A stretch of DNA of 64,000 bases from assembly GCF_002407245.1 (NCBI RefSeq), contig NZ_CP010681.1, positions 124,001-188,000 on the forward strand, given 5' to 3'. Below the pieces are notes generated by a model that searched no databases, had not been told where the DNA came from, and saw only the letters and a program-made list of their open reading frames with translations. A program made the position numbers and the translations under genes. Each line of letters starts with the position of its first letter. Position 1 is the first letter of the stretch. The DNA is from Phaeobacter piscinae. GTDB taxonomy: Bacteria > Pseudomonadota > Alphaproteobacteria > Rhodobacterales > Rhodobacteraceae. Below, piece by piece: positions 3,856 through 53,749 of the stretch.

Positions 3856-4083
3856 TGTGCCGTCCTTTGCGCTGAGAGGGGAAACCCATGAGACACCATA
3901 TGATTAACATGTGTATTAAAATCTGTCTACTTTGGGGAATTATATCAATAGATGCGATTGCTTGAGCGTCATTTCGCTCGCCTTTGCGGACGGCTCCCTG
4001 ATCGTTCCGTTTTCAGAAGCACTCTCTTGCTGGCGCCAGCATTGAAGATTTGCCTTTGTGCGCCGGGGCGGCGATAATTGGCC

Positions 4084-4518
4084 ATGACCAAGCAGTTACC
4101 AAGCACTGACCGATCTTTGCCCATCGCCCTGCTGCGCGCCCGCGAGCGTGTGATGGGCCCTATCCGCGCGCTGCTGAGCGATGCCGGTTTGACGGAACAG
4201 CAGTGGCGCGTGCTGCGTGTTGTTCAGGAAACCGGAGGGATCGACCCTACGCAGATTTCTGAACGGGCCTGTCTTCTTCTGCCAAGCCTGACACGCATCT
4301 TGCAGAAGCTTGAGGATAAGGGGCTGATCCAGCGTACGAAGGATCAGATAGATCGCCGCCGCCAGGTTGTGAGCATCACACCGGCGGGGACACAGGTCAT
4401 TGACGATAATCTGGATGCAAGCCTTGCCGTCATTCAGCGTACCCGTGCCCAAATGGGGGAGGATCGCTATGAGGCGTTGCTGGATTTGCTGAACGAGCTG
4501 CATCAATTGGACGAATAG
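4084..4518 (+). CDS. hpaR: MarR-family regulator, HpaR-like
   Basis: 144 residues with a winged helix-turn-helix: LTEQQWRVLRVVQ, then LLLPSLTRILQKLEDKGLIQR as recognition region and DRRRQVVSITPAG as wing. The resemblance is to HpaR, the repressor of homoprotocatechuate degradation operons. I chose the ATG at 4084; a TTG two codons earlier is less likely. It diverges from the aromatic decarboxylase with 228 bp between, where its operator probably lies. HpaR-type repressors are released by phenolic ligands such as 4-hydroxyphenylacetate; whether that ligand works here is inference. Its stop is 9 bp from the end of the convergent glycerate kinase gene. Confidence 0.85.
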   Translation: MTKQLPSTDRSLPIALLRARERVMGPIRALLSDAGLTEQQWRVLRVVQETGGIDPTQISERACLLLPSLTRILQKLEDKGLIQRTKDQIDRRRQVVSITPAGTQVIDDNLDASLAVIQRTRAQMGEDRYEALLDLLNELHQLDE

Positions 4519-4527
4519 GGGCCTATT

Positions 4528-5802
4528 CTACTGCGGTGACAGCAGCATAATTTGGACATCGGCTACATTGGTGCCGGTTCCGCCTGTTATCAGGAGATCG
4601 CCCGCCAGCTTCAACGCAGCGTTGCTGTCGTTGTTTCTGAGGAGGGCCTCGGGATTGCCGCCGTTGTCACTGATCCGTTGCCAGGTACCGCTGTCGACAA
4701 TACCGCCCGCCGCATCTGTCGGACCGTCACGACCATCGGTGCCTGCGGAGAGGAAGGTCCAATGCTCTTTGAGGGCACGAGGCCCCAGGCGGGCAACGTG
4801 CAGTGCCAGCTCTTGGTTCCGCCCGCCACGACCGCTGCCAGTCAGCTGCACTGTGGTTTCTCCGCCAAAAATCAGCGCAGCAGGGTGACCGGATTCGTGT
4901 GCTTTGGTTGCTGAGAGAATGGTCGTGGCCGCCGCTTCAACATCTCCCGTAAGCGCATCGTTGATGATATGTGCGGCCCAGCCATCGCGCTTTGCCTGAT
5001 CGCGCACGGCAATCAGGCTATGGCGGTTCGACCCGATTAGATGGGCTGACGCCACGCTGGAGTTCGCGGGCGATTGCTGCGGGTCTTCTGGTGTTGCCAG
5101 ATGGGTTTGAACCGCGTGAGGCAGCGCCTCCCACAGGTTCTGGGACAGAAGAAAATCGCGCGCCATTGCCCGCGCGCCCAGTGGTGCCACCGTGGGGCCC
5201 GAGGCGATGGCTCTCAGATCATCGCCGATGACATCCGAGAGAATATAGCTGAACACCTGTGCGGGCTGCGCCGCGCGCAACAGGCCGCCGCCCTTCAGCT
5301 CCGACAGTTGCTGGCGGATCAGATTCATCTGGGTGATGTCGACACCGGCCCCGAGCAGCAGATCCGTCACAGCGGTTTTGTCAGCCAGCGTGAGACCTCC
5401 CGCTGGCGCGACCGCCAGAGCGGAGCCGCCGCCCGATATCAGCGCGACGACCCTGTCCTTGGCGTTCAGATTGCTGAGTGCCGCGCGTAGGGCGGCCCCC
5501 GCAGCCAGGCTCATGTGGTTCGGAACAGGGTGACTGCCTGCCAACACCTCGACATCAGGTAGGTCCGCAACATTCTCTGGATTGGTCACAGCGATTGCAC
5601 GATCCGGGGGCGGCAGCATCTCTATCGCCTGACGCATCATGGGAATCGCGGCTTTCCCAAGGGCGACAAGGATCAGGCGTCCCCCCGGTTGCGGTAGGGC
5701 CGGTGGGTGTTTTCGCAGGCTCTCGGCCAGTGCCATGGCGGGGTTGGCACGGGCAACAGCCACTGCAAAGAGGGCGCGGGCAGTCCTGCGCAGATCAGCC
5801 AT
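4528..5802 (-). CDS. Glycerate 2-kinase (GckA/TtuD, MOFRL family)
   Basis: 424 residues, full length for the DUF4147/MOFRL glycerate kinases often annotated as hydroxypyruvate reductase TtuD. N-terminal nucleotide-binding features are LILVALGKAAIPM, VALISGGGSALAV and QLSELKGGGLLRA. The C-terminal MOFRL part has LIFGGETTVQLTGSGRGGRNQELAL and FLSAGTDGRDGPTDAAGG. The enzyme makes 2-phosphoglycerate from glycerate in the serine-cycle, tartrate and glyoxylate branches. Its start overlaps the end of the upstream sulfatase gene by 8 bp, so the two are translationally coupled. A divergent DeoR regulator upstream of the sulfatase probably controls both. Confidence 0.88.
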   Translation of the reverse strand: MADLRRTARALFAVAVARANPAMALAESLRKHPPALPQPGGRLILVALGKAAIPMMRQAIEMLPPPDRAIAVTNPENVADLPDVEVLAGSHPVPNHMSLAAGAALRAALSNLNAKDRVVALISGGGSALAVAPAGGLTLADKTAVTDLLLGAGVDITQMNLIRQQLSELKGGGLLRAAQPAQVFSYILSDVIGDDLRAIASGPTVAPLGARAMARDFLLSQNLWEALPHAVQTHLATPEDPQQSPANSSVASAHLIGSNRHSLIAVRDQAKRDGWAAHIINDALTGDVEAAATTILSATKAHESGHPAALIFGGETTVQLTGSGRGGRNQELALHVARLGPRALKEHWTFLSAGTDGRDGPTDAAGGIVDSGTWQRISDNGGNPEALLRNNDSNAALKLAGDLLITGGTGTNVADVQIMLLSPQ

Positions 5803-7372
5803 CCTGGTGGCCTGCAGCGAACGTCGGCCTATGGCGCAGCTGCCTGCGCGGCCCCTGTGGGGTGATGGTGTCCAGCGACAACGTATGATCCATGTTACGC
5901 ATACGATGGCGCAACATCTGTCGCGTCAGCCGGGCCAGATCGCGTTGATAGTCGGGGTGCTCCGCCACGTTAACGGCTTCGCCCAGGTCATCGTGATCAA
6001 ACAGCAGGGGCGGCAGGTCGGCTGCAAACTCGACCAGTGTGAAGCGCGCATCGCGCAGAATCGCAAGGCAGGAACAGCTCGCATCCGTGCCCAGATGTTG
6101 CTGCCAGATGCTAGGGCGCTCAGGCTCTGCGAAATCCAACTCCGAATAGCTGTAACTGCGCCAGTTGTCTGGAGTGTTTCCGGCAAGCAGCGGCAGCAGG
6201 GAGCGCCCGTCCATTGCGTTAGGAATAGGCTGGCCCACGCAGTCCAGAATGGTCGGTGCGAGGTCGATGGATTCGGTGATATCATGCACCACAGCGCCGG
6301 CGCGCGCTGCGTTGCCCGGTTGGCGAATGATCAGAGGCGTGTGATAGGCCGCCTCATAAACCGAGAATTTCCCCCAGCTGTGCCGATCGCCCAGCATTTC
6401 CCCATGATCTGCGCTGAGCACCACAAGCGTGTTCTCCAGCTGGCCGCTGTCGCGGAGGTACTCCATAACCCGACCGATATGGGCGTCGACCTCGCTGGCA
6501 AGACCCAGATAGATCGAGCGAAGCGTCTGGATTACTTCGTCGCTGGGCTCCAGATCGGGGAACCCTTCAACAAAGGACGCCGGGGAGGCGGCGCGGGTGG
6601 CTGGATCAAAAAATGGATGAACCGCGCGCTCGTCCTCAACAGTGGCAAGACGGTGCGGGAGCGGCAGGGACGCGGGATCATACATCCGGTTGTAGGGGGC
6701 AGGCGCAACAAGCGGTGGATGCGGGCGTATATAGGTCAGATGCGCGAACCAATTCTGGTCGCGGTAGCCGGGCAGCGTTGCCAGAAATCGGTCGGTCAGA
6801 AATGCGGTGTCACTGTCCTCAGCCCGATACGGAGCCGGATCGTTAAGACGCGGGGCATCCCCGGTTGGCGATACCGGTTTGTAGATGTCCCAGTAGCGGT
6901 CGAATGTGTAACCTTTGTTCAGAAGATGCGCGCGCCATGGATGCGACATTTCCATCCGCATCTCCAACATCTCATGAAACCCGCTCATCGGGTATTCGTA
7001 TGTTTGCATCGCCGGGTCGCTTGGGTGGTGGACGCGGGGATCGTGCGAGGTGTCGGTATACCCAAACAGCATTGGCAGATAGCCTGCCTTGCGCATCTCC
7101 GAGGCGAGGTTCGGTGTGTCATGCCGCAAGGGGGTGCCATTGCGGACGGAGCGGTGGTTCATCGCATACTGGCCGGTCAGGATAGAGGCACGCGACGGAC
7201 CGCAGGGGTTCACAACTGTGTAGTTCTTCTGAAAGGTAACGGCATCCCCCATTAGCGCGCGAAGATTGGGCAGCGCCACATGCTCCGCTAAGGCACCAAA
7301 CAGGCAGTCGGCCCGCATCTGATCAATCAGGATGAACAGGACATTCCTGCGCTGGTCTGAACATCGGCTCAT
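5795..7372 (-). CDS. Sulfatase-family hydrolase, phosphonate monoester hydrolase-like
   Basis: 525 residues from the ATG at 7372, preceded by GAGGAAG; the frame extends further upstream but without a site. The fold is alkaline phosphatase/sulfatase: NVLFILIDQMRADC supplies a metal-binding Asp, and VNPCGPSRASILTG is a perfect C-x-P-x-R formylglycine motif with the cysteine at residue 57. VVLSADHGEMLGD is a second metal site. The motif context, including the following YAMNHR and the pattern GYTDTSHDPR, looks more like the phosphonate monoester hydrolase/phosphodiesterase branch than like arylsulfatases. No signal peptide is seen, so it acts in the cytoplasm. It overlaps the glycerate kinase; a glyceryl ester substrate would connect the two, as inference. 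Confidence 0.85.
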   Translation of the reverse strand: MSRCSDQRRNVLFILIDQMRADCLFGALAEHVALPNLRALMGDAVTFQKNYTVVNPCGPSRASILTGQYAMNHRSVRNGTPLRHDTPNLASEMRKAGYLPMLFGYTDTSHDPRVHHPSDPAMQTYEYPMSGFHEMLEMRMEMSHPWRAHLLNKGYTFDRYWDIYKPVSPTGDAPRLNDPAPYRAEDSDTAFLTDRFLATLPGYRDQNWFAHLTYIRPHPPLVAPAPYNRMYDPASLPLPHRLATVEDERAVHPFFDPATRAASPASFVEGFPDLEPSDEVIQTLRSIYLGLASEVDAHIGRVMEYLRDSGQLENTLVVLSADHGEMLGDRHSWGKFSVYEAAYHTPLIIRQPGNAARAGAVVHDITESIDLAPTILDCVGQPIPNAMDGRSLLPLLAGNTPDNWRSYSYSELDFAEPERPSIWQQHLGTDASCSCLAILRDARFTLVEFAADLPPLLFDHDDLGEAVNVAEHPDYQRDLARLTRQMLRHRMRNMDHTLSLDTITPQGPRRQLRHRPTFAAGHQDG

Positions 7373-7559
7373 AGAGATCTTCCTCGCGGCAATTGACGCC
7401 AGATAAGCCCGAAAGTGTCTTCGTGGCAAAGGGTTTCCGGGCTCAACACCGTCGAAATTGACCGATAATGTGGGTTTTTGTGTTTTCCTGTTTGATTTTT
7501 TCGATTGAGCTGTGGTTCACTGCCCGGCAGATTCACCAGTCCTGTACAGAGGTTTCCGG

Positions 7560-8396
7560 GTGCCAGCAGACCAGAAAATGTCCCATCGCGAGCTTGAACT
7601 GCTAGAGGCCTTGCGCCGTCTGGGCGGTTCGGCGCGCAGTGGCGAACTGGCTAAGGTGCTGGGCGTTTCGGAAGAAACCGTGCGGCGCACGATCAAGGCA
7701 CTGGCCAAGCAAGGGTTGGTACAGCGCGTCCATGGTGGCGCCTATCTGAGTGGGCCGGATACGGCGGATAGTTTTTATCGGCGGATCTCGAAATATACCG
7801 AAGAAAAGCAGAGTATCGCCGCCGGAGTTCTGCCGCAGATCACAGACGGGATGGCGATCTTTCTCGATGTGGGATCCACCACAGCGTTTGTCGCAAAGGA
7901 ACTGCGTCGCCGCGCCAATCTGACAGTGGTGACCAATTCTATTGGCGTCGCGCAGACACTGGCCAATCACAACGGCAACAGAGTTCATTTCCTCGGCGGA
8001 GAAATCCAAAGCAATGAACGTGGCACGTTTGGCTATGTTGCCGAACAGCAAGTACGCGCATTTGCATTGGACCTGGCGGTGTTGTCGGCTGATGCGTTTT
8101 CTGCCAAACACGGCGCCCTCTACCACAGTGCGACAGAGGCCCAGCTTGCGGCGGTGGTTGCGCAGGCCGCCGAACGGACGCTGTTGTTACTGGCCCATCC
8201 GAAATTCGATGACATGGCGCCGCACCGGGGGCCGCAACCGGAGATGCTGGACCTGCTGATGACTGATGCCTTACCGGGCCGAAAGTACCGCCGTGCGTTG
8301 GAGACCTGGGGAATTGACCTTGAACTGGCGCCAACGCGGGACGCTGACGCGGCGAGCGAGGTGAAGGCAAAGAAACGGGCCCCCTCAATGGAGTGA
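7560..8396 (+). CDS. DeoR-family sugar-phosphate-responsive transcriptional regulator
   Basis: 278 residues from a GTG at 7560, chosen because AGAGG lies 7 bp upstream; an ATG at 7578 is the alternative. The N-terminal helix-turn-helix is ELLEALRRLGG...SEETVRRTIKALAKQGLVQRVHGGAY, typical of DeoR. The C-terminal DeoRC domain shows AIFLDVGSTTAFVAKEL and LTVVTNSIGVAQTL, the phosphosugar-binding fold. DeoR proteins usually repress neighbouring catabolic genes until a phosphorylated intermediate binds. It is divergent from the sulfatase-glycerate kinase pair across 187 bp, so these are its likely targets. The C-terminus has a short charged tail beyond the family core. Confidence 0.88.
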   Translation: MPADQKMSHRELELLEALRRLGGSARSGELAKVLGVSEETVRRTIKALAKQGLVQRVHGGAYLSGPDTADSFYRRISKYTEEKQSIAAGVLPQITDGMAIFLDVGSTTAFVAKELRRRANLTVVTNSIGVAQTLANHNGNRVHFLGGEIQSNERGTFGYVAEQQVRAFALDLAVLSADAFSAKHGALYHSATEAQLAAVVAQAAERTLLLLAHPKFDDMAPHRGPQPEMLDLLMTDALPGRKYRRALETWGIDLELAPTRDADAASEVKAKKRAPSME

Positions 8397-8494
8397 GCCG
8401 CGCGAACAGTTGCGCAGACGGAGTTCCGTTGAGCGCCAAAATAAAGATCGGCAGCCGTTAGAGACTGCCCGACAGAAGGAAAAGACACGAGCCT

Positions 8495-10171
8495 ATGGCC
8501 ATATTGAGCTTTCTTACCAGCCTCGCCGGTGCTGTCATGCTGCTGCTTTTTGCGGTGCGTATGGTGCGCACGGGCATTGAACGCAGCTATGGTGCCACGT
8601 TTCAGCGACTCCTGACTGAACAGCGCAGTCTTGTGCAGGCCAGCTTCGTGGGTATTGGCATGGCCATCGTTCTTCAAAGCTCGGCCGCGGTTGCGTTGCT
8701 GACGTCCGGGTTCGCGGCTGGGGGGCTGCTGTCCTTTGCCTCCGGGTTGGCGATTGTGCTGGGCGGGGATCTGGGCTCCGCGTTGATCATTCAGCTTCTG
8801 TCGTTCCGTCTGGACTGGTTGGTGCCGGTGCTGCTGGCGGTTGGTGGCTATCTGTTCGTCAAGGTTGAGGCGAAAAAAGCCCGTCAGATGGGGCGCATCC
8901 TGATGGGGATTGCGTTCATCTTGATTTCTTTGCGTTTCCTGCGTGAGGCGATGGACCCGATCCGGGAAAGCGCGTTTTTGCCCGCGATTGCAGAATACCT
9001 GGCGCGGGACTACATCACCGCGTTCCTTGTCGGGGCTGCACTCGCCTTTGTCATGCACTCCTCGGTGGCGGCTATTTTGATGTGTGTCACCTTGGTGCAG
9101 ATTGATGCGATCCCCTTTGCGGCTGGCCTGTCTTTGGTGTTGGGTGCGAATTTCGGCTCTGCGTTCATTCCCGTCTGGCTGAGCCGCGGGATGCCAGCGC
9201 CAGGGCGACGAATACCGCTGGCCAATCTGGGGCTGCGCGGGACTTGGGCCGTGCTGTGTCTGTTTGGTGTCAATATGGCGTTGCGAGCCGGTGTTCTGGG
9301 CGCGCCTGAGGGCGGGCAGACGCTGGTCTATGCGCATTTGCTGTTCAACACATCGCTACTGATTTTGGCGCTGCCCTTCTGCGGTATGTTGCACGGTGTG
9401 CTGACAGGTCTGGTGCCAGACCCGGCGACGCCGCAGGATACCGCGCATGGGATGCCTGTGAGTGTGCTGAATACCGACGATTATCGGCAGCCCAATCAGG
9501 CGATCAGCAGTCTCAAGCGGGAGTTGTTGCGAATGTCGGATCTGGTCAGCGCCATGTTCCGACCCGTTCCAGACCTCTACCAGCATGGTGACCGCACTCA
9601 GATCAGGGCGGTGCAGGCGTTGGACCGGGAGGTGAACAATTGCCTGTCAGGTATCCGGAGTTATGTGGCGGGCATGCCGAGCGAGGGGTTCGGCAAGGAA
9701 AACGCCAAAGTGGCCCGCGACTTGGTGGAATATGCCATCCGGCTCGAGACCGCCGGGGATGTAGTGGATGAACGTCTCGCCACCCTTGCCACGTCAATGC
9801 ACAAGAAGGGCGTGCGGTTTTCGAAAGAAGGCTGGGCGGAGATCACCCGTATGCACGAGGTCATTGTCGCCAATATGCAGCTGGCCTCCAACGTGCTGAT
9901 CTCGGACGATCTGGAAAGCGCGCGTCTGCTGAGCCTTGAGAAGACCGAGGTGAAGCGTATGGAACGCGACAGCCGCAAACGCCATCTGCGCAGACTCCAG
10001 AGAGGGGCCGCGGAGAGTTTCGAGAGTTCTGATATCCATCTTGAGACCCTGCGCGCACTGCGGGAATTCAACAGCCATATCGCTGCCATCGCCTATCCGA
10101 TTCTCTATCGGAACGGGCAGTTGCTGGAAACGCGTTTGATACAAGACATGCCTGCCGAGGAAATGGACTGA
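8495..10171 (+). CDS. Na+/phosphate cotransporter family protein (NptA/YjbB type) with PhoU-like tail
   Basis: 558 residues. The first 300 or so hold the two inverted Na/Pi-cotransporter repeats, with the telltale QSSAAVALLTSGF and a second, MHSSVAAILMCVTL, each in a strongly hydrophobic context, plus GGDLGSALIIQLLS and GANFGSAFIPVWLS. After about residue 330 the sequence becomes soluble and helical like the PhoU-type domain found at the end of YjbB. The protein sits in the inner membrane and moves phosphate coupled to sodium; YjbB itself exports phosphate when cellular levels are high. Phosphate handling would fit the nearby phosphonate/phosphodiester-type hydrolase, but no shared promoter is evident. 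Confidence 0.87.
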   Translation: MAILSFLTSLAGAVMLLLFAVRMVRTGIERSYGATFQRLLTEQRSLVQASFVGIGMAIVLQSSAAVALLTSGFAAGGLLSFASGLAIVLGGDLGSALIIQLLSFRLDWLVPVLLAVGGYLFVKVEAKKARQMGRILMGIAFILISLRFLREAMDPIRESAFLPAIAEYLARDYITAFLVGAALAFVMHSSVAAILMCVTLVQIDAIPFAAGLSLVLGANFGSAFIPVWLSRGMPAPGRRIPLANLGLRGTWAVLCLFGVNMALRAGVLGAPEGGQTLVYAHLLFNTSLLILALPFCGMLHGVLTGLVPDPATPQDTAHGMPVSVLNTDDYRQPNQAISSLKRELLRMSDLVSAMFRPVPDLYQHGDRTQIRAVQALDREVNNCLSGIRSYVAGMPSEGFGKENAKVARDLVEYAIRLETAGDVVDERLATLATSMHKKGVRFSKEGWAEITRMHEVIVANMQLASNVLISDDLESARLLSLEKTEVKRMERDSRKRHLRRLQRGAAESFESSDIHLETLRALREFNSHIAAIAYPILYRNGQLLETRLIQDMPAEEMD

Positions 10172-10210
10172 TGCCTCCCCGCAGCGACCTGCCAGATCTG
10201 AAAGCCTGAC

Positions 10211-11050
10211 ATGACTCCATTTGTGATCGCCATTATCCTGTCGGCTGCGTTGCTGCATGCGATCTGGAATGCCATTGTCAAAACCGCAACAGATCGGACC
10301 ACGACATTGGGGTTGGTCGCGCTGGGTCATGTTCTTCCCGGGGCGGTCATGGTGGTGTCGCTGCCATTACCTGCGGTGGCGAGCCTGCCCTATATCGGCC
10401 TCTCGACCGTCGTGCATTTCGGGTATTTCTACATGCTGGGGCGTGCCTATCAGCATGGCGACCTGAGCGTGGTCTACCCGATCGCGCGCGGAATTGTGCC
10501 TGCATTGGTTTCGCTCTGGGCGATGATTTTCGTGGGAGAAATGCTGCCCTTACAGGCTTGGTTCGGGATTGCGCTTATTGCGGTGGGAATCCAACTCAGC
10601 AGTTGGAAAGCGCTGCGATCCGGTGTTGGGCGGGGTGCGCTATGGTACGCGCTGGGCACCGGATTCTGCATTTCGGTATATTCGTTGGTTGATGGTGTCG
10701 GGGTGCGACTGTCACAGAATACCGTCAGCTACTGGGCTTGGGGTGCCTTTTTGCACATCTTTGTCGCGGTGTTTGTCATCCTGCGAAAGCGAGAGACCTT
10801 GCCGGGATTGCCGCTTAAAGTTTGGGCATTGGGAATTGCGGGCGGTCTGGTGTCGATGTGCGCGTATGGGTTGGTCTTGTTTGCTAAAAACTTTGCGCCG
10901 CTGGGCGCGGTCTCGGCCTTGCGCGAAACATCGGTCATCTTCGCCGCGCTGATTGGTTTCCTGATCCTGAAAGAGGGCAATTGGAAGCGCCGCCTCGGGG
11001 CGGCTGTCCTGATGGCGGTCGGGGTTGCGCTTATCGGCATGGCGGTTTGA
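10211..11050 (+). CDS. EamA/DMT-family transporter
   Basis: 279 residues with about ten predicted membrane helices in two EamA halves, the drug/metabolite transporter pattern. Recognisable pieces are AAVLLHAIWN-like ALLHAIWNAIVK at the N-terminus, YPIARGIVPALVSLWAMIFVGE at the end of the first half, and ALRETSVIFAALIGFLILKE near the end of the second. Such proteins move small metabolites or amino acids, often outward; substrate cannot be called from sequence. The gene starts 39 bp after the Na/Pi transporter on the same strand, so cotranscription is likely. Confidence 0.82.
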   Translation: MTPFVIAIILSAALLHAIWNAIVKTATDRTTTLGLVALGHVLPGAVMVVSLPLPAVASLPYIGLSTVVHFGYFYMLGRAYQHGDLSVVYPIARGIVPALVSLWAMIFVGEMLPLQAWFGIALIAVGIQLSSWKALRSGVGRGALWYALGTGFCISVYSLVDGVGVRLSQNTVSYWAWGAFLHIFVAVFVILRKRETLPGLPLKVWALGIAGGLVSMCAYGLVLFAKNFAPLGAVSALRETSVIFAALIGFLILKEGNWKRRLGAAVLMAVGVALIGMAV

Positions 11051-36909: not shown

Positions 36910-38967
36910 TCAGAACATCTTCCTTTCCCAGAAACGCAGCTTTTCGCAGGCTCTCAGAAAATCACCAACATTTTCGCCATCGATCTTCATCATGCCGTCA
37001 TCGATCTTGTCAGAGAGACCCACAGTTTCGATCAACGGCATGGCTGCATCGGTCCACGCGATGAACTTTGCATGTGCAAACGCATCGCTGAGAAAATCCT
37101 GTGATGGTTTGTTGTTTGCCATTTCGCTGCCGGCTCCCTCTGAAAACACCAGCGCAACCGCATCGAACAGAACTGAAGGGCCTCCATCGATTTTCTCGTC
37201 TGCGGGCTTTGTCGTGCCGTCGGACAGTTTTGCACCGAAAATCTGCGGTGCGACGATGGCCACCATCGCGCCCGCGCGGGTGAATTCGGCCTCGATCTCA
37301 TTGACCAAACCGGCATCGGCGCCGTCCGTGATAAATAGGCCCAGTTTGCGGCCGGCGAAGCTCTCGGGGCCGTTTTTGAGAATGCTCAGAGCGTCCGAAG
37401 CGGGCAGATCGGTGATAGGCTTGCGCGCTGGTTTTGCCGCGTCGGGCAGGTCAGAGACGCCCAGACCCTTGGCCACGGATTCTGCCAGATCATCGTGCAC
37501 GTTCATCAGATGGCTTAGCATTCGAAGCCTGATCCTTTCATGCTGGCACTTCGACAACTCGAAGGTATAGGCCGCAGCAATGTGGTTCTGTTCAGTGGCT
37601 GTCTGGCTGATCCAGAACTGCCGAGCTTGGCTGTAGTGGTCGGCAAATGTCTCGGAGCGCGTGCGTTGCTTGCCGCCCTGCACCCGCTCAGAATAACTGG
37701 CGAACCCGATTTCGGGATTTTCGCGAGGCCCGCCATCCTCATCCCAGCTGTTCGGCTCATAATTCGCCCGGCCCTTGGGATTGCGCATCGCCATGTGGCC
37801 GTCCTGCTGGAAATGGTGAACGGGACATTTCGGTGCGTTGATCGGTATATGGGTGAAATTCGGCCCGCCCAGACGCTTGGTTTGCGTATCAAGGTAGGAG
37901 AAGTTGCGCCCCTGAAGAAGTGGATCATCGGTGAAGTCGATGCCGCGGACGATGTTTTGGGTACAGAATGCTACCTGCTCGGTTTCAGCAAAGAAATTAT
38001 CGACGTTGTTATCCAGCGTCATGGTGCCGATAATCTGCACCGGCACCTGCTCCTCAGGTATGAGCTTGGTGGCGTCGAGAATATCGAACTCGAACTCATC
38101 CGCGAATTCATCATCGAAGACCTGGATGCCCAAGTCCCATTGCGGGTAATCCCCTGCGTCGATGGCATTCCACATATCGCGGCGGTGAAAATCCGGGTCG
38201 GCGCCGTTGATCTTCAATGCTTCGTTCCAAACCACGGATTGCAGGCCTTGCTTTGGTTTCCAGTGAAATTTCACGAAATGGGATTTGCCCTCGCTATTGA
38301 CCAGCCGGAAGGTGTGTACACCGAACCCTTCCATGAACCGCAGGGAGCGAGGAATGGCGCGGTCCGACATCGTCCACAGGGTCATATGGACGGCCTCGGG
38401 CGATAGTGAGATGAAGTCCCAGAAATTGTCATGCGCGCTTTGAGCTTGGGGGAAGGCGCGATCGGGCGCCGGTTTAACCGAATGAACCAGGTCCGGAAAT
38501 TTCATCGCGTCTTGGATGAAGAAGACCGGCATGTTGTTGCCCACCAAGTCCCAGTTGCCCTCGTTGGTGTAGAACTTCACCGCAAAACCGCGCACATCGC
38601 GTGCGACGTCCGGCGATCCCTTGCTGCCAGCAACGGTGGAAAAACGGGTGAAAACAGGTGTCTTCTCTCCTTCGCGCTGAAAAATATCTGCACAGGAGAA
38701 CTCCGGGATCGCCCTCGTCAGTTCGAAGTGGCCGTGTACGCCATACCCGCGCGCATGGACGACACGTTCGGGAATCCGTTCATGGTCGAAGTGGAAGATT
38801 TTTTCGCGCATGATCTGATCTTCCAGCAGTACCGGTCCACGCGGTCCGGCTGTTAGGGAATTCTGATCGTCGGAGACGGGTGCGCCTTGTGCCGTCGTGA
38901 TGGTTCCCTCGCGTGCATCCGCTTCCTGATGCGGTGCGCCACCTTTATCCAAATTGAGTTTTTTCAT
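36910..38967 (-). CDS. katE: Large-subunit monofunctional catalase (HPII/KatE type)
   Basis: 685 residues, the size of clade II catalases. The haem catalase core shows the catalytic His in [16 protein letters not shown], Asn in [17 protein letters not shown], and the proximal Tyr in [19 protein letters not shown]. From about residue 540 the C-terminal flavodoxin/DJ-1-like domain appears ([17 protein letters not shown], then [15 protein letters not shown]). It converts hydrogen peroxide to water and oxygen in the cytoplasm. AAGGAG precedes the ATG. It begins only 32 bp after the Y4yA-type decarboxylase on the same strand, with no terminator between, so it may be the last gene of that operon. 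Confidence 0.94.
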
Positions 38968-38999: not shown

Positions 39000-40457
39000 T
39001 CAGCCTGTTGGGTGATCGTGTCCGCCATAGTCTATCCCGTCGAGCCTGGCCGACGCGTCGGGGTCCGATCGCAAGAAGATGTTTCGGGCCAGTGGAAACT
39101 GGTGTGAACGACTTTCCAGAAAATGCATGAGGTAGCCTGCGGTGTTAGGGAAAACCATCAGGTCACCGACCCCAACACCATGGGGGAATGCCATCTTGCG
39201 CCGGGTCAGCCATTCGCTTTCCGTGCAGTAGGTCCCAGCCAGATAGCCCGCGACCGCATCGCCACGCGGCCCCTTTCCGGGAACCATCAAGGGGTCGAGT
39301 GCAAATTCGGAAAAGCCCGATCGCGACTGGGTGCGGTTCATCTGCACCCCAATAACCGATTCACCTGCACTGTCTGTCTTTCGGAAGGCTACTCGCGCCA
39401 CGGTCATGCCGCACCCGTCCAGCAGAGACCGGCCGGGCTCGCACCGCAAGGTTACGTGGGCATCGCGCAGCCGCCTAGCGATTGTGCGGTCCCCATCGGG
39501 GGCTTGCAGGATCTGTCGCATCCAGTCGGTTTGAACCAGAGACTGAGCCACCGGATAACTGTCCACTGTGCCGGGAGCGCCATCGGGTCCCCGTTTTCGC
39601 CCAAGGTTGTCATTGTGTTGCGTAATCGGGTCACGTTCTCCGGCTAGTGCCTTGTCCAGCTCAGCCAGCCAAACGTCCCATTGGCGGGGATCGGCGAGGT
39701 AGTTCATCGGGATGCCGCCCCCGATGTCGAGGAAGAAATCGCGACTACAGTCGCCCCGAATATCCGCCACCATGGGCAGTGTCTGTGATATTGCTGCGAT
39801 ACGCTCCTCAGCACTGTATCCGTTGAGGTGGAAATGCAGCCCGTCCAGTCTGAGCGCGACGGACCGTTCCAGCCGCGCCACAATCCCAGGAATCTCGCTC
39901 AACGTGAAGCCGAAACGCGAGTAGATCGCCCTACCACCGCATGAAAATCCGTTCAGCCGCAACCCGACCGAAATCGTCCGGTCGCCGCCCTGAGAAACCT
40001 CTTCCAGCAATGCTAACTCGTCATAATTGTCGAGCACGATGGTCACGCCGCCAGCAACACAAAGCGCCATCAGTGCCCGGTCCTTTACCGCCGCCGTGCA
40101 AACGATCCTGTGACCGGGAACCCCTTGCGCAAGACATTGTTCAACCTCTGCATGGCTTGCCGTGTCGATGCCGATGCCCTGACCCCGAGCCGATTGGACA
40201 TAGGTCAGGCACTTGTTGGCCTTACGAGCGAACATCGGCATGAAAGGCAGATCAAAATCAGCGACACAGCCGGTCAGCGCTGCGATGTGCCGACTGAAAG
40301 GCTCAACCGACTGGATATTCAACGGTGCGCCAAATTCCTCAATTAGCGCGTGCAAGCGGGGTGGATCAGCAATCAAATCGACCATCCAGTCCTCCAGCCG
40401 CGGGCGGAGGGGGACAACACCTCGGCAATGATCAAATAGGGACTGCCGCGGGTTCAT
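39000..40457 (-). CDS. Y4yA-family PLP-dependent decarboxylase (fold type III)
   Basis: 485 residues from the ATG at 40457, which overlaps the stop of the preceding gene. It is an alanine racemase-fold decarboxylase of the DapDC/ornithine/SbnH group. The PLP lysine is in MPMFARKANKCLTYV, the phosphate-binding glycines in FFLDIGGGIPMNYL and CEPGRSLLDGCGM, and the second-subunit cysteine in AGTYCTESEWLTRR. It closes with VFPNTAGYLMHFLESRSHQF. Family enzymes decarboxylate a D-centre or free amino acid. With an SbnA-like synthase in the same operon, a diaminopropionate-type substrate is the obvious hypothesis; SbnH of staphyloferrin B synthesis belongs to this fold. Confidence 0.85.
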   Translation of the reverse strand: MNPRQSLFDHCRGVVPLRPRLEDWMVDLIADPPRLHALIEEFGAPLNIQSVEPFSRHIAALTGCVADFDLPFMPMFARKANKCLTYVQSARGQGIGIDTASHAEVEQCLAQGVPGHRIVCTAAVKDRALMALCVAGGVTIVLDNYDELALLEEVSQGGDRTISVGLRLNGFSCGGRAIYSRFGFTLSEIPGIVARLERSVALRLDGLHFHLNGYSAEERIAAISQTLPMVADIRGDCSRDFFLDIGGGIPMNYLADPRQWDVWLAELDKALAGERDPITQHNDNLGRKRGPDGAPGTVDSYPVAQSLVQTDWMRQILQAPDGDRTIARRLRDAHVTLRCEPGRSLLDGCGMTVARVAFRKTDSAGESVIGVQMNRTQSRSGFSEFALDPLMVPGKGPRGDAVAGYLAGTYCTESEWLTRRKMAFPHGVGVGDLMVFPNTAGYLMHFLESRSHQFPLARNIFLRSDPDASARLDGIDYGGHDHPTG

Positions 40458-42031
40458 GCCGTTTGCTCCAGACTTGTCGCTCGGCCCGCACGGGCTGCAT
40501 GAACGACATTGGCTGCCCACCGCTCCGGCAAATCGTGCAGCGCGCGCGATAAGGTGTCGTTGCCCAATACACTGCCTTCAGTCGCGCGCCCGATGATCGA
40601 CAATCCCGGTGTTGCGGCACCGTTCACCAGCGCCTGCGCTCGGCCATTTACGACAATGCCCTGCAATGCCCCCACGCTCAAATGACCGTCGCGCATCAGG
40701 CCGTTCAGGGGCTGCGACAAGGCTGCACTTCCAGCGGGCGGGATCGTCGCGTCAACTGTGACATCCGCAGCCATACCGCCATCGAGGTGGTTTAAGCTCA
40801 CCAACCCGGTTCGTTCGAGGCAGATCAGTTTGCCGATATTCTGGGCAGGCGGACCGAAGGCCAGCCGTTCCATCTCGGTCGCGACAGTACGGAATAGGGC
40901 TGCGTCCGTCTCCGGTAGATCATGGTGGTTTATCCACGCAACGAGGTGGGGATAGCATCGCCGCCAAGTCTCGCCTAAGGCCCACAAGACGTCCGGTGGG
41001 CGGATACCGAGCGCAATCTCGAAGCCCGTGCGCAATTCATCTCGGCACCGTTCCGGGTCGAATACGGACCCCTGCCAGTGGGTGAAGACAGCCGCCGCAG
41101 TGCCAGGCGCGCTACTGATCGTTCGCTCAGCCATCTGCCGTATCGAGGGCCAAATATCACTAGTGAAAGTAGCGCTAGGTTTTTCCGAAAGAAGTGCTTC
41201 GAACGCGTCTAGCTGTGTCTCCCAATAGGCCTCATCTTGGGGGCGTGCGAACCGATCAACATCGACCTTGGCCCGCATCGGGCGTCCGGTGCGGCTGAAC
41301 GGTGCGATCAACTGCGGCTCAAGGCCAGACGAGTGATAGACGTAGCCCTGCTCCGAGGGCGCGAAGGAACCGCCGCGCCCTTCGGTGAGTGCCAGCATCG
41401 TGTCGAGGAACGTTAGGGCGAACCCCTTACAGGCTACGGAGGTGCCTGGCGGTATGCGCGCCTTGGTCAACGCCAGATCTACGGGAAACGGAGAGGGAAT
41501 CTCCTCGCTAAGATGGGGCCGACGCGTCCGGGACCAATCCTGGTGGCCAGTGCAAATTAGCAGCTCGTCAACGACGATGCTACCGGGTGAGATCATCCAC
41601 CGGGCCTGGAACTGTCGTACGTCGTGGACCCTGACGGGGTGTATCGAGATCTGGAGGTTAGGCGGTGCGTTCGCGACCACTTGGCCAAAGCACCATGTGA
41701 GGTATTGGCCAACCACCGCGCGCGGAACGTATTCCTCCGCAGCCACCTTCTTGCCCTGGCTCATTAGCCATACCTGCAAGTCCGGCCCCCGTCCGCCGGT
41801 CCAGGCGTCGATCTTACCGGCCGGAAAATTCATCAGCAGTACATTCGGCTGCCCCGGATCGTAAATTGGACCCGCGCCCGGGTGGGGAGACTCTTCGAAA
41901 ACATGGACATCGAAACTGTGCGATGGCGTTTTACGGGCTGCTTCGGACAATGAGTCCAATGCATAAAGCCCTTTGGGGCCGCAACCGACGATGGCGATTT
42001 CTCGATGCGCCTGACCTATGTGGAAGTTCAT
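40454..42031 (-). CDS. FAD/NAD(P)-binding protein (NAD_binding_9 type)
   Basis: 525 residues from the ATG at 42031, which overlaps the preceding stop. The N-terminal dinucleotide fold is EIAIVGCGPKGLYALDSL, followed by DVHVFEESPHPGAGPIYDP and NVLLMNFPAGKIDAW, as in the FAD-dependent PF13454 family. A late NG...GRATEGSVLGNDTLSRAL is also family-typical. Such proteins are flavin oxidoreductases of poorly known substrates. Its place between SbnA-like and Y4yA-like genes suggests oxidation of the condensation product, the step done by unrelated SbnB in staphylococci. This is inference from context. Confidence 0.78.
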   Translation of the reverse strand: MNFHIGQAHREIAIVGCGPKGLYALDSLSEAARKTPSHSFDVHVFEESPHPGAGPIYDPGQPNVLLMNFPAGKIDAWTGGRGPDLQVWLMSQGKKVAAEEYVPRAVVGQYLTWCFGQVVANAPPNLQISIHPVRVHDVRQFQARWMISPGSIVVDELLICTGHQDWSRTRRPHLSEEIPSPFPVDLALTKARIPPGTSVACKGFALTFLDTMLALTEGRGGSFAPSEQGYVYHSSGLEPQLIAPFSRTGRPMRAKVDVDRFARPQDEAYWETQLDAFEALLSEKPSATFTSDIWPSIRQMAERTISSAPGTAAAVFTHWQGSVFDPERCRDELRTGFEIALGIRPPDVLWALGETWRRCYPHLVAWINHHDLPETDAALFRTVATEMERLAFGPPAQNIGKLICLERTGLVSLNHLDGGMAADVTVDATIPPAGSAALSQPLNGLMRDGHLSVGALQGIVVNGRAQALVNGAATPGLSIIGRATEGSVLGNDTLSRALHDLPERWAANVVHAARAGRATSLEQTA

Positions 42032-43053
42032 TGCAGACCAGCCAAGGCGCGAACCTCGTCCCCGGATGCGCCCAGCTCCCGTGCGACCCAATCGTCGTCG
42101 AAAACAGTACTCAAGTACCGCGAGCCTGAATCATGAAGGATTGCCACAGCGGTCTTGCCGGATAGTTCGTCCTGCATGCTGCGCACAGCTTCGAGTACGC
42201 CCCCCCCTGATCCGCCGACCAGGATGCCCTCGTGCTTAACGGCTCGACGGCAGCCAGCCACGCACGTGAGGTCGGATACGCGAACTAGGCCATCGAAACT
42301 TTGTCCTTGTGCCAGCTCGGGCAGGCGCCCCGCGCCCATGCCGGATATTTTTCTCGGTCCAGCCGTGCCGTCAAACAATGTGCTGCCTTCGGCGTCAACG
42401 GCGACAACTTTGGTCCTGCGCCCCTTTGCGCGCAGAAAGTCCCGGCAGCCCCGCGCTGTGCCTGTGCTGGAGCAGGCGACAAAAAGGTAATCGACCTGCC
42501 CAGAAAATGCGGCATCAATTTCCGCTACGGTCCCGGTTTCGTGCGAAGCGGGGTTGTCGAGGTTTGCATATTGATTTGGCCAGAACCGGTCAGCGGACTC
42601 TTCGAGCAGCACGCTCACCCGCTCCAAGCGAGCAGCAAGAAAATCACCGTCTAGCGCTTGGTCGACCAGCTCGATCTGTCCTCCCAAAGCGCGAATTATG
42701 TCGATATTTTGTGCCTGTGCATTTGGGTCTACCACGCAGATGAACTTCAGGTGGTGTAGAGCGCAGGCTTGCGCTAGGCCGATGCCCATATTCCCGGAAG
42801 AAGATTCCACAACCGTATCACCTGGTGAGAGGCGTCCATCGGCGAGGGCGCGCTCAATCATGTGACGGGCGGGTCGGTCCTTCGCACTTCCACCTGGGTT
42901 CAACGCCTCCAACTTGGCAAACAAGTTGACCGATGCCTTGTCTAGATAATGATGTAGACGCACCAATGGAGTCTGGCCAATAAGATCCAGAAGATTGTCG
43001 GCGACACGAGGGACTGAAGTGTGTGCAGGGGCAATATTTGTCTCAATGTTCAC
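42028..43053 (-). CDS. SbnA-like cysteine-synthase-family enzyme (O-phosphoserine-dependent synthase)
   Basis: 341 residues from a GTG at 43053 with AGGTGA upstream; a TTG six codons earlier overlaps the previous gene. It is a fold type II PLP enzyme: IGQTPLVRLHHYLD, then NPGGSAKDRPARHMIERAL with the PLP lysine, SSSGNMGIGLAQACAL and VACSSTGTARGCRDFL. The lysine loop GSAKDRPA, rather than GSVKDR, and the overall flow match SbnA, which joins O-phospho-L-serine and glutamate to give N-(2-amino-2-carboxyethyl)glutamate, the precursor of 2,3-diaminopropionate. A ParB-fold serine-kinase-like gene directly upstream, 8 bp away, could make the O-phosphoserine. An ordinary cysteine synthase is the main alternative. 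Confidence 0.82.
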   Translation of the reverse strand: MNIETNIAPAHTSVPRVADNLLDLIGQTPLVRLHHYLDKASVNLFAKLEALNPGGSAKDRPARHMIERALADGRLSPGDTVVESSSGNMGIGLAQACALHHLKFICVVDPNAQAQNIDIIRALGGQIELVDQALDGDFLAARLERVSVLLEESADRFWPNQYANLDNPASHETGTVAEIDAAFSGQVDYLFVACSSTGTARGCRDFLRAKGRRTKVVAVDAEGSTLFDGTAGPRKISGMGAGRLPELAQGQSFDGLVRVSDLTCVAGCRRAVKHEGILVGGSGGGVLEAVRSMQDELSGKTAVAILHDSGSRYLSTVFDDDWVARELGASGDEVRALAGLQ

Positions 43054-43061
43054 GATATCAC

Positions 43062-43505
43062 CTATACGCAAAGACGACCGGTGCTGCCCGGTCTGGTGGA
43101 GGCGCCGCGCAGGAGATCACTGAGCGGGACACGGATGGAGGGGATTGAGAACTTGAGTAGGTGTCTCGAAGTTTTTGGTGGCATCATCTCGCCTCGGGCC
43201 GCAGCCGAGCGCACCATTTCAGGTGTAACCAATTCATCCGGCCGCCAAGCCGTCACTTCGACTTCTGCCGGATCGTCGTAGTCGACCTCGACACATGGGG
43301 CTAGGTCAGCGCCCAGAGCATTCAGTGCGGTGTACCGGTGATGGCCATCCAGCAATGTCCGACAGCGCCGCGCGATGATTAAGGGTCGCCAGATCGCTTG
43401 GTCAGTTCGAATGGACCGCGCAATACTGGCAGAGTGATCCGCGTTCACGAATTCATGCGGTCTAATCTCCACAAGCGGCCGAAGTACAACAGACATAGGG
43501 CGCAT
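43062..43505 (-). CDS. Minimal ParB/sulfiredoxin-fold protein, probable free-serine kinase (SerK/SbnI-like)
   Basis: 147 residues. It has a ParB-type N-terminal domain and no DNA-binding helix-turn-helix. Diagnostic strings are VEIRPHEFVN near the start, whose Glu would be the catalytic base of SerK-type kinases, WRPLIIARRCRTLLDGHHRYTALNALG with the DGHHR nucleotide/serine loop, and ADLAPCVEVDYDD. SerK and SbnI phosphorylate free L-serine to O-phospho-L-serine, the substrate of SbnA. It is shorter than those (about 240-250 residues), lacking most of the C-terminal domain. It leads the operon; a second ATG three codons later is equally possible. Confidence 0.75.
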   Translation of the reverse strand: MRPMSVVLRPLVEIRPHEFVNADHSASIARSIRTDQAIWRPLIIARRCRTLLDGHHRYTALNALGADLAPCVEVDYDDPAEVEVTAWRPDELVTPEMVRSAAARGEMMPPKTSRHLLKFSIPSIRVPLSDLLRGASTRPGSTGRLCV

Positions 43506-43692
43506 AACAAATGACCTTTTTAGGGTTAAGGATGAAGCGCCAGAATGGCCTGACCTCCATTTACGCCAATAACGTTCAATCTACTGAATTGTTCCAATCA
43601 GCCGATGCTACAATATTGGCTTGCAGAAGACCGCCCGCCGCTTGTCTCGTGGTCTGAAAATTTAGAAGCCCATCAGGCAGACAGCTCTCAGC
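43506..43692. promoter_or_regulatory. Likely promoter region of the serine-kinase/SbnA operon
   Basis: 187 bp, AT-richer than average, between the operon's first ATG and the end of the DUF998 gene, which is on the same strand. It should contain the operon promoter. I found no unambiguous Fur-box or other palindrome by eye. Confidence 0.35.
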
Positions 43693-44445: not shown

Positions 44446-44865
44446 TTAATCCCACCAGCCCTCATCAACCGATTCCATCTCTTCGAGCTGCTCTTCGGTC
44501 TTGCGCGTCACGATGGCATAGTTCTTGTCATCCACTGGTGTCAGGCGAATGTCTTCGACAGGGATCAGCACATGTTTGTCGCCGATATCTAGGAAGCCGC
44601 CAACTTCAGCCACGACACCAATCATCTTTCCACCGCGGTCCAAGACAATATCTTCGATTTCACCGATATCATTCCAGTCTGGGCCGACACCTTCGGCCTC
44701 CCAATTACCCCAAGTATCTTCGTCCATGGGGCCATTCAGAGTGTAGATATCTCCGCCAGTGATATCGCGTGTGCGGATCAGATTATCAGTATCCATCATT
44801 GTTTCCGCAACAGCAGGCGCTGCAACCATACCGGCAATAAGAGCAAAAGAGGTGAGGCGAGGCAT
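44446..44865 (-). CDS. Exported PRC-barrel domain protein
   Basis: 139 residues from the ATG at 44865, preceded by AAGGGAA. A signal peptide (RLTSFALIAGMVAAPAVAE) exports it. The rest is one PRC barrel: WNDIGEIEDIVLDRGGKMIGVVAEVGGFLDIGDKHVLIP followed by VDDKNYAIVTRKTEEQLEEME. Periplasmic PRC-barrel proteins are common in roseobacters and rhizobia and are linked to stress or surface properties, without a clear activity. It precedes the DUF998 gene on the same strand by 114 bp. Confidence 0.82.
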   Translation of the reverse strand: MPRLTSFALIAGMVAAPAVAETMMDTDNLIRTRDITGGDIYTLNGPMDEDTWGNWEAEGVGPDWNDIGEIEDIVLDRGGKMIGVVAEVGGFLDIGDKHVLIPVEDIRLTPVDDKNYAIVTRKTEEQLEEMESVDEGWWD

Positions 44866-51924: not shown

Positions 51925-52540
51925 TGCGAATACTCCTTTAGGGTCAAAGAAGGTTTGAATAGCACAGATACAACCTATAGGAGAGTTAAATCCTCATTAC
52001 CCCATCGCAATTGCAAAGTGATCTGGAGCGTAAGTGGCAGTTTCAACCGCTTTTTCCGGTTGTCCAGGATATCCAGAGGTTCAGTCATGTTCCGCAGGGT
52101 GCGCTGGAAGTCGGTAGAGGACGCACAAACGTTCTTTGCAAGGCTCTGACCCGTACGGGTATCGTCGCGGACACTGTTCATATTCTGACCCGGTGAGGAG
52201 ATAGCGCCACAGGTCGCATTGGCATTCCTGCCATAGGCTTCGGCGCAGATCGGTGTGGCACTGCTAGCTCCCGCCTGGCGTGACCGTAACCGCATGTTGA
52301 GGAAAACTGTACATTGAGACAAAATCAGCTGACCGCAGGTCAGAGGAAAAGGGGCGCTGCCAGGGCACCGGCCAGTCGGCCTATCGTCTGTTTCATTAAG
52401 ATCATGCTAAGAATTTCGACCATGGACGTGGCTCTTCTGAAGGTGACGGTTGTTATCGCAGTCCTCGGAAAAGGGACCGAGTAGCGGAACATTCCAAGGC
52501 AGCTGAACGTTGTGTAGTATTGGAAAAACAGGAGTTGCAT
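51925..52540. other. 616-bp stretch with no credible gene
   Basis: Short frames on both strands (for example minus 51975-52322) have no motif, no ribosome-binding site and odd composition. It should contain promoters for the trefoil gene (left) and the FNT gene (right). Confidence 0.45.
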
Positions 52541-53386
52541 ATGACCGAGGCCAGACCCCCCGGCGAGGATCTCATTCAAGAAGAATGTGAGAATGAGGCG
52601 GTCGAGGAGGCGACGGGCCTTTCTCCCAGGTTAATCTTTGAAACCATACGTCGCAATGGCGAAGAAGAGCTCGAACGCCCGATCCGGGCGCTTTGGTGGT
52701 CAGGGATTGCTGCTGGGTTGCTGATCAGTTTTTCGGTGCTGGGCAAGGCGGTATTCAAGACACATCTGCCGGAGGCCAGTTGGTCACCTCTGGTCGAAAA
52801 CCTCGGCTATTCTTTAGGCTTCTTGATGGTGATCTTGGGGCGCATGCAACTCTTCACCGAGAACACTATCACCACCGTGGTGCCTGTCATGTTGCGCGGA
52901 GACAAAGCGAGTTTTCTGCGCACGGCGCGGCTTTGGGCGGTTGTGCTGGCAGCGAATGTCGTCGGTGCCTTTCTTATCGCCTCGTTTTTTGCGTTGACAC
53001 CTGTGCTGGATGCAGATCTGCGTGCGGCCATGTTGAAAATCAGTGAGCATGCGACCGGTATGCCGCCTCTTATAGGCCTGATCAGCGGTATTCCATCGGG
53101 AATTTTGATCGCTGCTATTGTCTGGATGCTGCCCTCAGCACAGCACAGCGAAATTCCTCTAATTGTCATCTTTACCTGGATGATTGCGGCGGGCGATTTC
53201 ACTCATATCGTGGCCGGATCGGTCGAAATGGCGTTTTTGATGGTGCAGGGGTTACTGCCTTTGGGACAGGCGATCTTTGGGTTCTTCATCCCGGTTCTTG
53301 TTGGCAATGTCATTGGCGGCACCGCGGTGTTCACCGTGTTGACCTATGCGCAGATCAAACCGGAGATACCCGAACACAGGCCATGA
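52541..53386 (+). CDS. Formate/nitrite transporter (FNT) family protein, YfdC-like
   Basis: 281 residues from the ATG at 52541 behind AGGAG. A 60-residue acidic N-terminal lead precedes six membrane helices. The FNT marks are LGYSLGFLMVILGRMQLFTENT in the first half-repeat, AANVVGAFLIASFFAL, and FTHIVAGSVEMAFLMVQG in the second with a conserved central His-type residue. The long acidic tail before helix 1 and the GRMQLFTEN form point to YfdC-type members rather than FocA. These move small monovalent anions; the exact substrate is not known. Confidence 0.86.
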   Translation: MTEARPPGEDLIQEECENEAVEEATGLSPRLIFETIRRNGEEELERPIRALWWSGIAAGLLISFSVLGKAVFKTHLPEASWSPLVENLGYSLGFLMVILGRMQLFTENTITTVVPVMLRGDKASFLRTARLWAVVLAANVVGAFLIASFFALTPVLDADLRAAMLKISEHATGMPPLIGLISGIPSGILIAAIVWMLPSAQHSEIPLIVIFTWMIAAGDFTHIVAGSVEMAFLMVQGLLPLGQAIFGFFIPVLVGNVIGGTAVFTVLTYAQIKPEIPEHRP

Positions 53387-53496
53387 TCTCAGAACAGATC
53401 CGGACCGGACGTCTTTGCGGTTGGGGTCAGATTGGGAACTTTCCGTTGTTAAAAGCGTTTTCTCAGCAGACGATAACGACAGAATGAGGAAGAGCG

Positions 53497-53658: not shown

Positions 53659-53720
53659 ATTTACAACACTCAGCAGGCGGCGCAAAAAGCTAGGTTACCT
53701 GACCTGTCTGAGACAAAAGG

Positions 53721-53749
53721 AACGCGATCCCTTGGGAACGCGTTTTTTT
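53721..53749 (+). terminator. Rho-independent terminator behind the DUF1328 gene
   Basis: AACGCGATCCC and GGGAACGCGTT pair over 11 bp with one mismatch and run into T7. It lies 62 bp behind the DUF1328 stop and faces the convergent reductase gene. Confidence 0.82.

Follow-up and report, generated by a model that had tools for sequence, protein, structure and literature searches.

A conserved SbnA–flavoprotein–Y4yA gene trio in Phaeobacter piscinae and its possible place in a stress-controlled diaminopropionate pathway

What might four neighbouring genes make that together resemble part of the staphyloferrin B pathway, and what purpose might the product serve? We examined this question in a 64,000-nucleotide stretch of the Phaeobacter piscinae genome (contig NZ_CP010681.1, positions 124,001 to 188,000 of the forward strand; this whole stretch is called the window), in which minus-strand genes encode a ParB-fold protein resembling the free serine kinase SerK, an SbnA-like enzyme, a flavoprotein and a Y4yA-like decarboxylase dependent on pyridoxal 5'-phosphate (PLP). 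An initial annotation had taken them for a pathway to an O-phosphoserine-derived diamino acid or amine, perhaps made for a metallophore or signal. We found that the last three genes are an old, widespread three-enzyme unit. The reading that we favour, tentatively and short of calling it probable, is a biosynthetic operon under general-stress control, leading from serine through O-phosphoserine and an adduct of the N-(2-amino-2-carboxyethyl)-glutamate (ACEGA) type to oxygenated or released diaminopropionate and on to a decarboxylated amine. The pathway logic of the initial annotation largely stood; its metallophore purpose found no support. The operon and its predicted promoter are laid out as follows.

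43571-43595, minus strand: EcfG-type promoter-like site GGAAC-N16-CGTT, an exact match to the pattern (predicted)
43062-43505, minus strand: SerK-like gene (147 amino acids, ParB fold, DGHHR motif)
42028-43053, minus strand: SbnA-like gene (GTG start, 341 amino acids)
40454-42031, minus strand: gene for the flavin adenine dinucleotide (FAD) protein, called the flavoprotein (525 amino acids, PF13454)
39000-40457, minus strand: Y4yA-like fold III PLP decarboxylase gene (485 amino acids, PF02784)
36910-38967, minus strand: KatE/HPII-type long catalase gene (PF00199, PF06628, PF18011)

Gene organization and conservation of the trio

All four open reading frames of the initial annotation were present and their coordinates were confirmed. 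ATGA overlaps link the SbnA-like gene to the flavoprotein gene and the flavoprotein gene to the Y4yA-like gene, and the SerK-like stop codon lies 8 nt upstream of the SbnA-like GTG start. The catalase gene, which lay beyond the span of that annotation, begins 32 nt past the Y4yA stop codon, is preceded by AAGGAG, and is a probable fifth gene of the operon. A PADLOC search matched 0/4 operon proteins, and a reading as anti-phage defence was dropped.

GTDB genomes were scanned with a flavoprotein profile; 132 relatives were confirmed and the best 80 were kept as loci. In 71 of these 80, genes for SbnA, the flavoprotein and Y4yA lie on the same strand in that order, a proportion that does not describe the whole superfamily because the best 80 are the nearest relatives by construction. 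The 71 loci span seven phyla: Bacteroidota (38), Planctomycetota (9), Actinomycetota (9), Pseudomonadota (8), Verrucomicrobiota (4), Gemmatimonadota (2) and Balneolota (1). One locus (L046) is counted among them though a contig end cuts its decarboxylase, and it was left out of the alignments, whose 74 rows comprise the window, 70 of the 71 trio loci and L005-L007. A single partner was found at L054, L062 and L073, the first and last of which are at contig ends, and no SbnA or Y4yA partner was found at L030, L037, L042, L043, L052 or L086. The L052 contig (Acidobacteriota), whose flavoprotein lies at a contig end and which gave no SbnA match, carries an octopine-dehydrogenase-family gene (PF02317) near this trio-type flavoprotein (1617-2918 and 3984-4892). 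Closer to home, 4 of the 61 genomes around the source, itself included, gave a flavoprotein match, and in the short loci fetched only the source flavoprotein adjoins SbnA and Y4yA. The trio is also found on two Sulfitobacter plasmids and one Tsukamurella plasmid.

The three proteins have diverged in step: their distance matrices correlate with Mantel r of 0.891, 0.898 and 0.851, and the best of 1000 permutations reached 0.104. Furthermore, SbnA and the flavoprotein share one open frame in six Flavobacteriaceae loci and one Balneolota locus, seven in all. The flavoprotein and Y4yA do so in two actinobacteria (L033 and L036), which is weaker evidence of fusion because actinobacterial open frames are long by chance. 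In the open-licence literature, screened by titles and the starts of abstracts, neither the trio nor its product was found described. Taken together, these results demonstrate that the trio is an old and widespread three-enzyme unit.

Candidate reactions of the enzymes

The SbnA-like protein scored 364.5 bits with the NCBIfam model TIGR03945, above the curated cut-off of 349.95, and fell under the cut-offs of the NCBIfam cysteine synthase and cysteate synthase models; its closest solved structure is SbnA itself (5d84, phmmer E 1.3e-67). One paper names Arg132, Tyr152 and Ser185 as the residues behind selective O-phosphoserine binding by SbnA (PMC12414870). The window protein has R142, Y162 and S195 at these positions, and the 74 trio rows keep R in 74, Y in 74 and S in 72. 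By comparison, the SbnA-like enzymes of siderophore and SbnB-like cassettes retain R and have G at the serine position, and two other SbnA-like hits in trio loci L029 and L033, presumably cysteine or cystathionine synthases at 34-35% identity, show A or Y, F or Y, and G in place of the three residues. The assignment to an O-phosphoserine-type SbnA was upheld on both the cut-off and the three residues, and we predict an O-phosphoserine-dependent beta-substitution enzyme, an ACEGA synthase. A metagenome-assembled genome of Verrucomicrobiales (L044) has two SbnA copies ahead of the flavoprotein, at 6636-7862 and 8995-9966, both with R/Y/S.

These scores bear on a taurine-like route, in which SbnA would make cysteine or cysteate, the flavoprotein would oxidise the sulfur and Y4yA would decarboxylate. 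By our own reasoning such a route would suit a stress osmolyte, but the SbnA model is passed, the cysteine and cysteate synthase cut-offs are not reached, R/Y/S are kept, and the closest characterised relative of the flavoprotein, described below, hydroxylates nitrogen. We give this route very little credence.

O-phosphoserine could be supplied by the SerK-like protein. As the initial annotation had proposed, it carries the DGHHR motif, and phmmer matches it to solved SerK (E 5.8e-13 against 1vk1; about 1e-12 for 1vk1/5x0b). The alignment to 1vk1 consists of two stretches, one N-terminal and one over the C-terminal KTxRH region, and leaves SerK residues ~105-202 unmatched; the window protein is 95 residues shorter than solved SerK and is under the equivalog cut-offs of both the SerK model (55.4 bits vs 380) and the SbnI model (21.8 vs 350). 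Across 12 aligned short ParB/SerK-like proteins, from the window and its cassette relatives, E18, D53, H56, R57, W87, K111, R114 and H115 are invariant, and by alignment the window protein matches SerK at Glu30, Asp69, Trp102 and KTxRH, which we take to be residues of the catalytic region. We predict from these matches a compact free serine kinase making O-phosphoserine. Because the invariant residues are common to their ParB-like proteins, such a kinase may serve both the trio and the rhizobial and A. vitis cassettes described below. The metagenome SerK-like proteins P0123 and P0125 are probably linked to the flavoprotein matches P0043 and P0007, since the longest contigs recorded for them are of equal length.

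The only convincing solved relative of the flavoprotein was 8cp2 (E 1.8e-25 with the single sequence, 6.1e-47 with a 30-member profile), which was also the sole solved chain under E 0.01 in the profile search. 8CP2 is a Streptomyces L-aspartate N-hydroxylase in which Asn62 sits over the flavin; its aspartate ligands are Arg13, Arg276, Arg416, Arg577 and Asn413, with Arg266, Arg409 and Arg412 in the same cluster, and the N413E substitution abolishes aspartate hydroxylation (PMC10404684). All 74 trio flavoproteins keep the motifs of class B N-monooxygenases, namely G16/G18 (FAD glycine motif), N68, the equivalent of the catalytic Asn62, and G203/D210 (domain for reduced nicotinamide adenine dinucleotide phosphate, NADPH). 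The positions of Arg412, Asn413 and Arg416 are Y360, P361 and V364 in the window and mainly Y/S, P and V/N across the 74 rows, in a stretch over which the profile alignment is weak (independent E-value, i-E, 0.24). The Arg416 position is R in 7/10 flavoproteins outside trios; the Arg276 position is unconserved in the trio family, and the window protein may have R263 there.

Because Asn62 is kept and Arg412, Asn413 and Arg416 are changed, we count the flavoprotein as a superfamily member, though probably one that does not hydroxylate aspartate. Its residues point to what is probably an N-monooxygenase of different specificity, for which the SbnA product is the simplest candidate. An aspartate N-hydroxylase that fed nitrosuccinate or nitrite into, say, a diazeniumdiolate would agree with 8cp2 as the one solved match and with kept or conservative equivalents of Arg13, Arg266 (K/R in 74/74) and Arg409 (R in 52/74); the altered positions, and among them the one at which N413E is reported to abolish aspartate hydroxylation, make it highly improbable.

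The initial annotation had suggested that the flavoprotein could replace SbnB, and sister cassettes support the idea, since they hold an ornithine-cyclodeaminase-family protein in that slot. The cassette of A. vitis pAvCG412 (L094) encodes a short ParB/SerK-like protein, an 'ornithine cyclodeaminase', a decarboxylase and an SbnA-like protein; that of M. avium pMAH135 (L092) encodes an SbnA-like protein, an 'ornithine cyclodeaminase', Y4yA and a MATE protein. For both middle proteins (Pfam OCD_Mu_crystall) the best NCBIfam model is SbnB TIGR03944, at 102 and 93 bits vs 327, and on that basis they are SbnB-like, not proven SbnB. Three considerations would place the flavoprotein in the SbnB role: SbnB-like proteins occupy the same slot in comparable cassettes, fusions and gene order put the flavoprotein after SbnA, and, by our own reasoning, N-oxidation of a secondary amine can give a nitrone or imine that hydrolyses. 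On pAvCG412 (1283-10411) the cassette directly follows genes for aepX, a cytidylyltransferase and a CDP-alcohol phosphatidyltransferase, and its product is possibly a lipid head group with an ethylenediamine or diaminopropionate unit.

The fourth protein proved to be a fold III PLP decarboxylase of the Y4yA type, as first described: it matches PF02784, and its orthologues are named Y4yA family. Positions K79, GGG 246-248, C411 and E413 are kept in 74/74 trio rows and E340 (EPGR) in 73/74. We take K79 to be the PLP lysine and C411 the catalytic Cys, with the GGG loop and EPGR in their usual roles.

These assignments suggest the following route. The compact SerK, or the host's own route, would convert free serine to O-phosphoserine, and SbnA would exchange the phosphate for the amino group of an amino acid, likely glutamate, to give ACEGA or an analogue. 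With NADPH and O2, the flavoprotein would oxidise the secondary amine of this adduct in place of SbnB, and would either release 2,3-diaminopropionate (or its N-hydroxy form) and 2-oxoglutarate or leave the N-hydroxy adduct intact. Y4yA would strip the amino-acid carboxylate to leave an ethylenediamine-type amine. The order of the flavoprotein and Y4yA steps, the nucleophile and the product are all our suppositions. The catalase would be part of this stress response, and might in addition clear peroxide leaked by the flavoprotein.

An unlikely, though not negligible, variant is that the flavoprotein oxygenates nitrogen without cleavage: Y4yA would make N-(2-aminoethyl)-glutamate from the SbnA adduct and the flavoprotein would hydroxylate the secondary amine of that compound. 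The outcome would be an N-hydroxy amino-polycarboxylate chelator, intracellular or secreted. Rhizobial loci bear on this variant. In the y4x/y4y locus of pNGR234a and two relatives (L090, L091, L093) the order is ParB-like, Y4yA, SbnA-like, octopine dehydrogenase, IucA/IucC, and an ornithine-cyclodeaminase-type gene is not annotated in the fetched stretch, so that a Y4yA acting on the uncleaved adduct, as in rhizobactin, fits. The order of the rhizobial locus would explain the aminoethyl-lysine core of rhizobactin step by step. That 8cp2 is a true N-hydroxylase also suits the variant. On the other side, gene order and the fusions of SbnA to the flavoprotein speak for a flavoprotein that takes the SbnA product directly, and among the matches listed for the scanned families there is no exporter that recurs right next to the trio.

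Surroundings of the trio and the purpose of the pathway

Neighbours of the trio were narrowed from 278 selected proteins to 130 that were co-directional and at least 130 amino acids long, of which 86 were scanned. Short-chain dehydrogenases, Catalase_C and DUF421 came up 4 times each, catalase, DUF3891, DUF2383 and sigma-70 3 times each, and DJ-1, MscS, DEAD helicase and others twice. To set this against genome background, copies of three families across 50 trio genomes were compared with copies within the fetched loci. KatE has 28 copies, with 0.11 expected near the trio and 6 found (Poisson 2e-9; near the trio in 6/50 other genomes), DUF421 has 53, with 0.20 expected and 9 found (1e-12), and DUF2383 has 49, with 0.17 expected and 5 found (1e-6). 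The three families thus stand 30–55 times above expectation; the Poisson values are optimistic because the families were chosen after their recurrence was noticed and some of the Bacteroidota are related. Left out of the count were 19 over-cut-off short frames with Catalase_C (181-241 amino acids, not catalases) and all sub-cut-off matches (3, 1 and 7). A recurring neighbour of ~700 amino acids, considered as a TonB receptor, turned out to be a long catalase.

The predicted promoter points in the same direction. An exact copy of GGAAC-N16-CGTT lies ~65 bp upstream of the SerK start codon, and the window holds 5 matches to GGAAC-N16/17-CGTT vs 0.86 expected, a number that 0/100 shuffles reach. 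The further exact matches to the pattern are these.

4795-4820: GGAAC-N16/17-CGTT site
52486-52511: GGAAC-N16/17-CGTT site
53435-53459: GGAAC-N16/17-CGTT site
53719-53744: GGAAC-N16/17-CGTT site

One study gives this type of site as the conventional alphaproteobacterial general-stress promoter, with two catalases among its targets (PMC7083833), and in another the EcfG-dependent genes include catalases and one for a PRC-barrel protein (PMC6599016). The source genome carries NepR, and 8 copies of the motif lie within 13 kb around it vs 0.18 expected. One further trio locus (L013) has an exact site at 8285-8309, ~115 bp upstream of its SerK-like gene. Within the window, a PRC-barrel gene is found at 44446-44865, and the site at 52486 is just ahead of a gene of the formate/nitrite transporter family (52520-53386). 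A general-stress island with the catalase and PRC-barrel genes may extend beyond the operon. In four Maribacter loci (L063, L065, L066, L072), a gene pair for molybdopterin-binding and 2Fe-2S subunits adjoins the trio and runs opposite to it (~5.9-8.7 kb); CO-dehydrogenase-like genes are EcfG-dependent in Sphingomonas (PMC6599016).

The purpose proposed by the initial annotation, a metallophore or signal, was not supported; the surroundings point more to general stress. Its statement that a siderophore synthetase is missing was borne out: IucA/IucC was unmatched in the source genome, and among the other 50 trio genomes, the set to which SbnB and IucA/IucC counts apply, one carries it, at a coordinate beyond the length of the trio contig and hence on a different one. 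SbnB (TIGR03944) exceeded its cut-off in 1/51 trio genomes, which is not the source. A precursor pathway for a siderophore or other metallophore, with its condensing enzyme elsewhere in the genome, seems improbable to us. SbnA-like, Y4yA and short ParB-like proteins do occur in rhizobial siderophore operons, contig 5 of the source genome (L096), which is not the window's contig, holds one condensation domain of a nonribosomal peptide synthetase (NRPS) in a 1490-aa frame, and in six Bacteroidota loci a cluster of SusC-type TonB-plug genes (~1030-1150 amino acids; two members scanned) lies within 10 kb of the trio; sigma-70 genes are near the trio in nine loci and FecR genes near some. Against this stand the scarcity of IucA/IucC (1/51), the absence of TonB, IucA/C and NRPS from the 25 commonest Pfam families of the 86 scanned neighbours, and the enrichment of stress genes beside the trio. 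An ExbD match near L049 was under cut-off and was discounted.

Several observations weigh against the stress-controlled operon that we favour. The majority of trio neighbourhoods are without KatE, DUF421 and DUF2383. The promoter pattern has no genome-wide excess (59 matches vs 109 for the reversed pattern), and in 6/7 other alphaproteobacterial trio loci an exact site was not found in the 1.2 kb before SbnA. Conservation of all four genes together, as the initial annotation had expected, holds for the trio and fails for the SerK-like gene, which is mostly absent nearby: it adjoins the trio in the window, L013 and L022 (2/71 loci of the genome collection plus the window), and is optional. Glutamate, though most likely the SbnA nucleophile, is carried over by analogy from known SbnA. 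The position of the 8CP2 aspartate ligand Arg13 is conservatively K/R in 74/74 trio rows. Finally, sub-cut-off SbnB relatives occur in 34/51 trio genomes at E 0.001 and reach at least 93 bits in 9/51 (source genome best 78 bits); because they are common, SbnB-like activity may exist elsewhere in the genome.

Beyond the operon itself, we hold it possible, with still less assurance, that the trio, sometimes fused, marks an unnamed stress metabolite pathway in seven phyla, whose product, an N-oxygenated diamine, protects cells under general stress by scavenging radicals or chelating metal. The flavin N-monooxygenase would then use oxygen for the task that SbnB performs with nicotinamide adenine dinucleotide (NAD). 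The product could be N-hydroxy-ethylenediamine, formed by decarboxylation of 3-hydroxyamino-alanine, or else an N-hydroxy-N-(2-aminoethyl)-amino acid, to name two examples. If this is true, O-phosphoserine and diaminopropionate chemistry, whose best-known settings are siderophores and antibiotics, also serves more widely in bacterial stress survival, and there are a new class of N-monooxygenase substrate and a new stress metabolite to be found.

Comparison with known systems

The rhizobial y4x/y4y loci resemble the window in grouping a short ParB/SerK-like protein, Y4yA and an SbnA-like enzyme. They differ in carrying IucA/IucC and an opine dehydrogenase, with a major facilitator superfamily (MFS) gene annotated in 2/3, and at the two selectivity positions where the window has Y and S, their SbnA-like enzyme carries S and G. 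The A. vitis and M. avium cassettes likewise keep an SbnA-like enzyme and a decarboxylase together, A. vitis also with the short SerK-like protein, and IucA/IucC is not annotated within the stretch fetched; unlike the window, they have an SbnB-like protein in the flavoprotein slot, and the A. vitis SbnA-like protein scores 240, under the SbnA cut-off.

Compared with the L-aspartate N-hydroxylase of the FzmM/CreE type (8CP2), the flavoprotein shares the superfamily, the FAD and NADPH motifs and the catalytic Asn, but lacks Arg412/Asn413/Arg416 and is 76 residues shorter.

Neither IucA/IucC nor an over-cut-off SbnB, the pair that would mark a staphyloferrin-type NRPS-independent siderophore (NIS) locus, was found in the source genome. 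Next to the staphyloferrin B pathway (SbnI, SbnA, SbnB, SbnH), the window is without synthetase genes, has a flavin N-monooxygenase-like protein where that pathway has the NAD-dependent SbnB, and has a compact kinase and stress surroundings; in common they have a serine-kinase-like protein, an SbnA with R/Y/S and a fold III decarboxylase. With GGAAC-N16-CGTT upstream and NepR in the genome, the operon has two of the marks expected of an EcfG general stress regulon.

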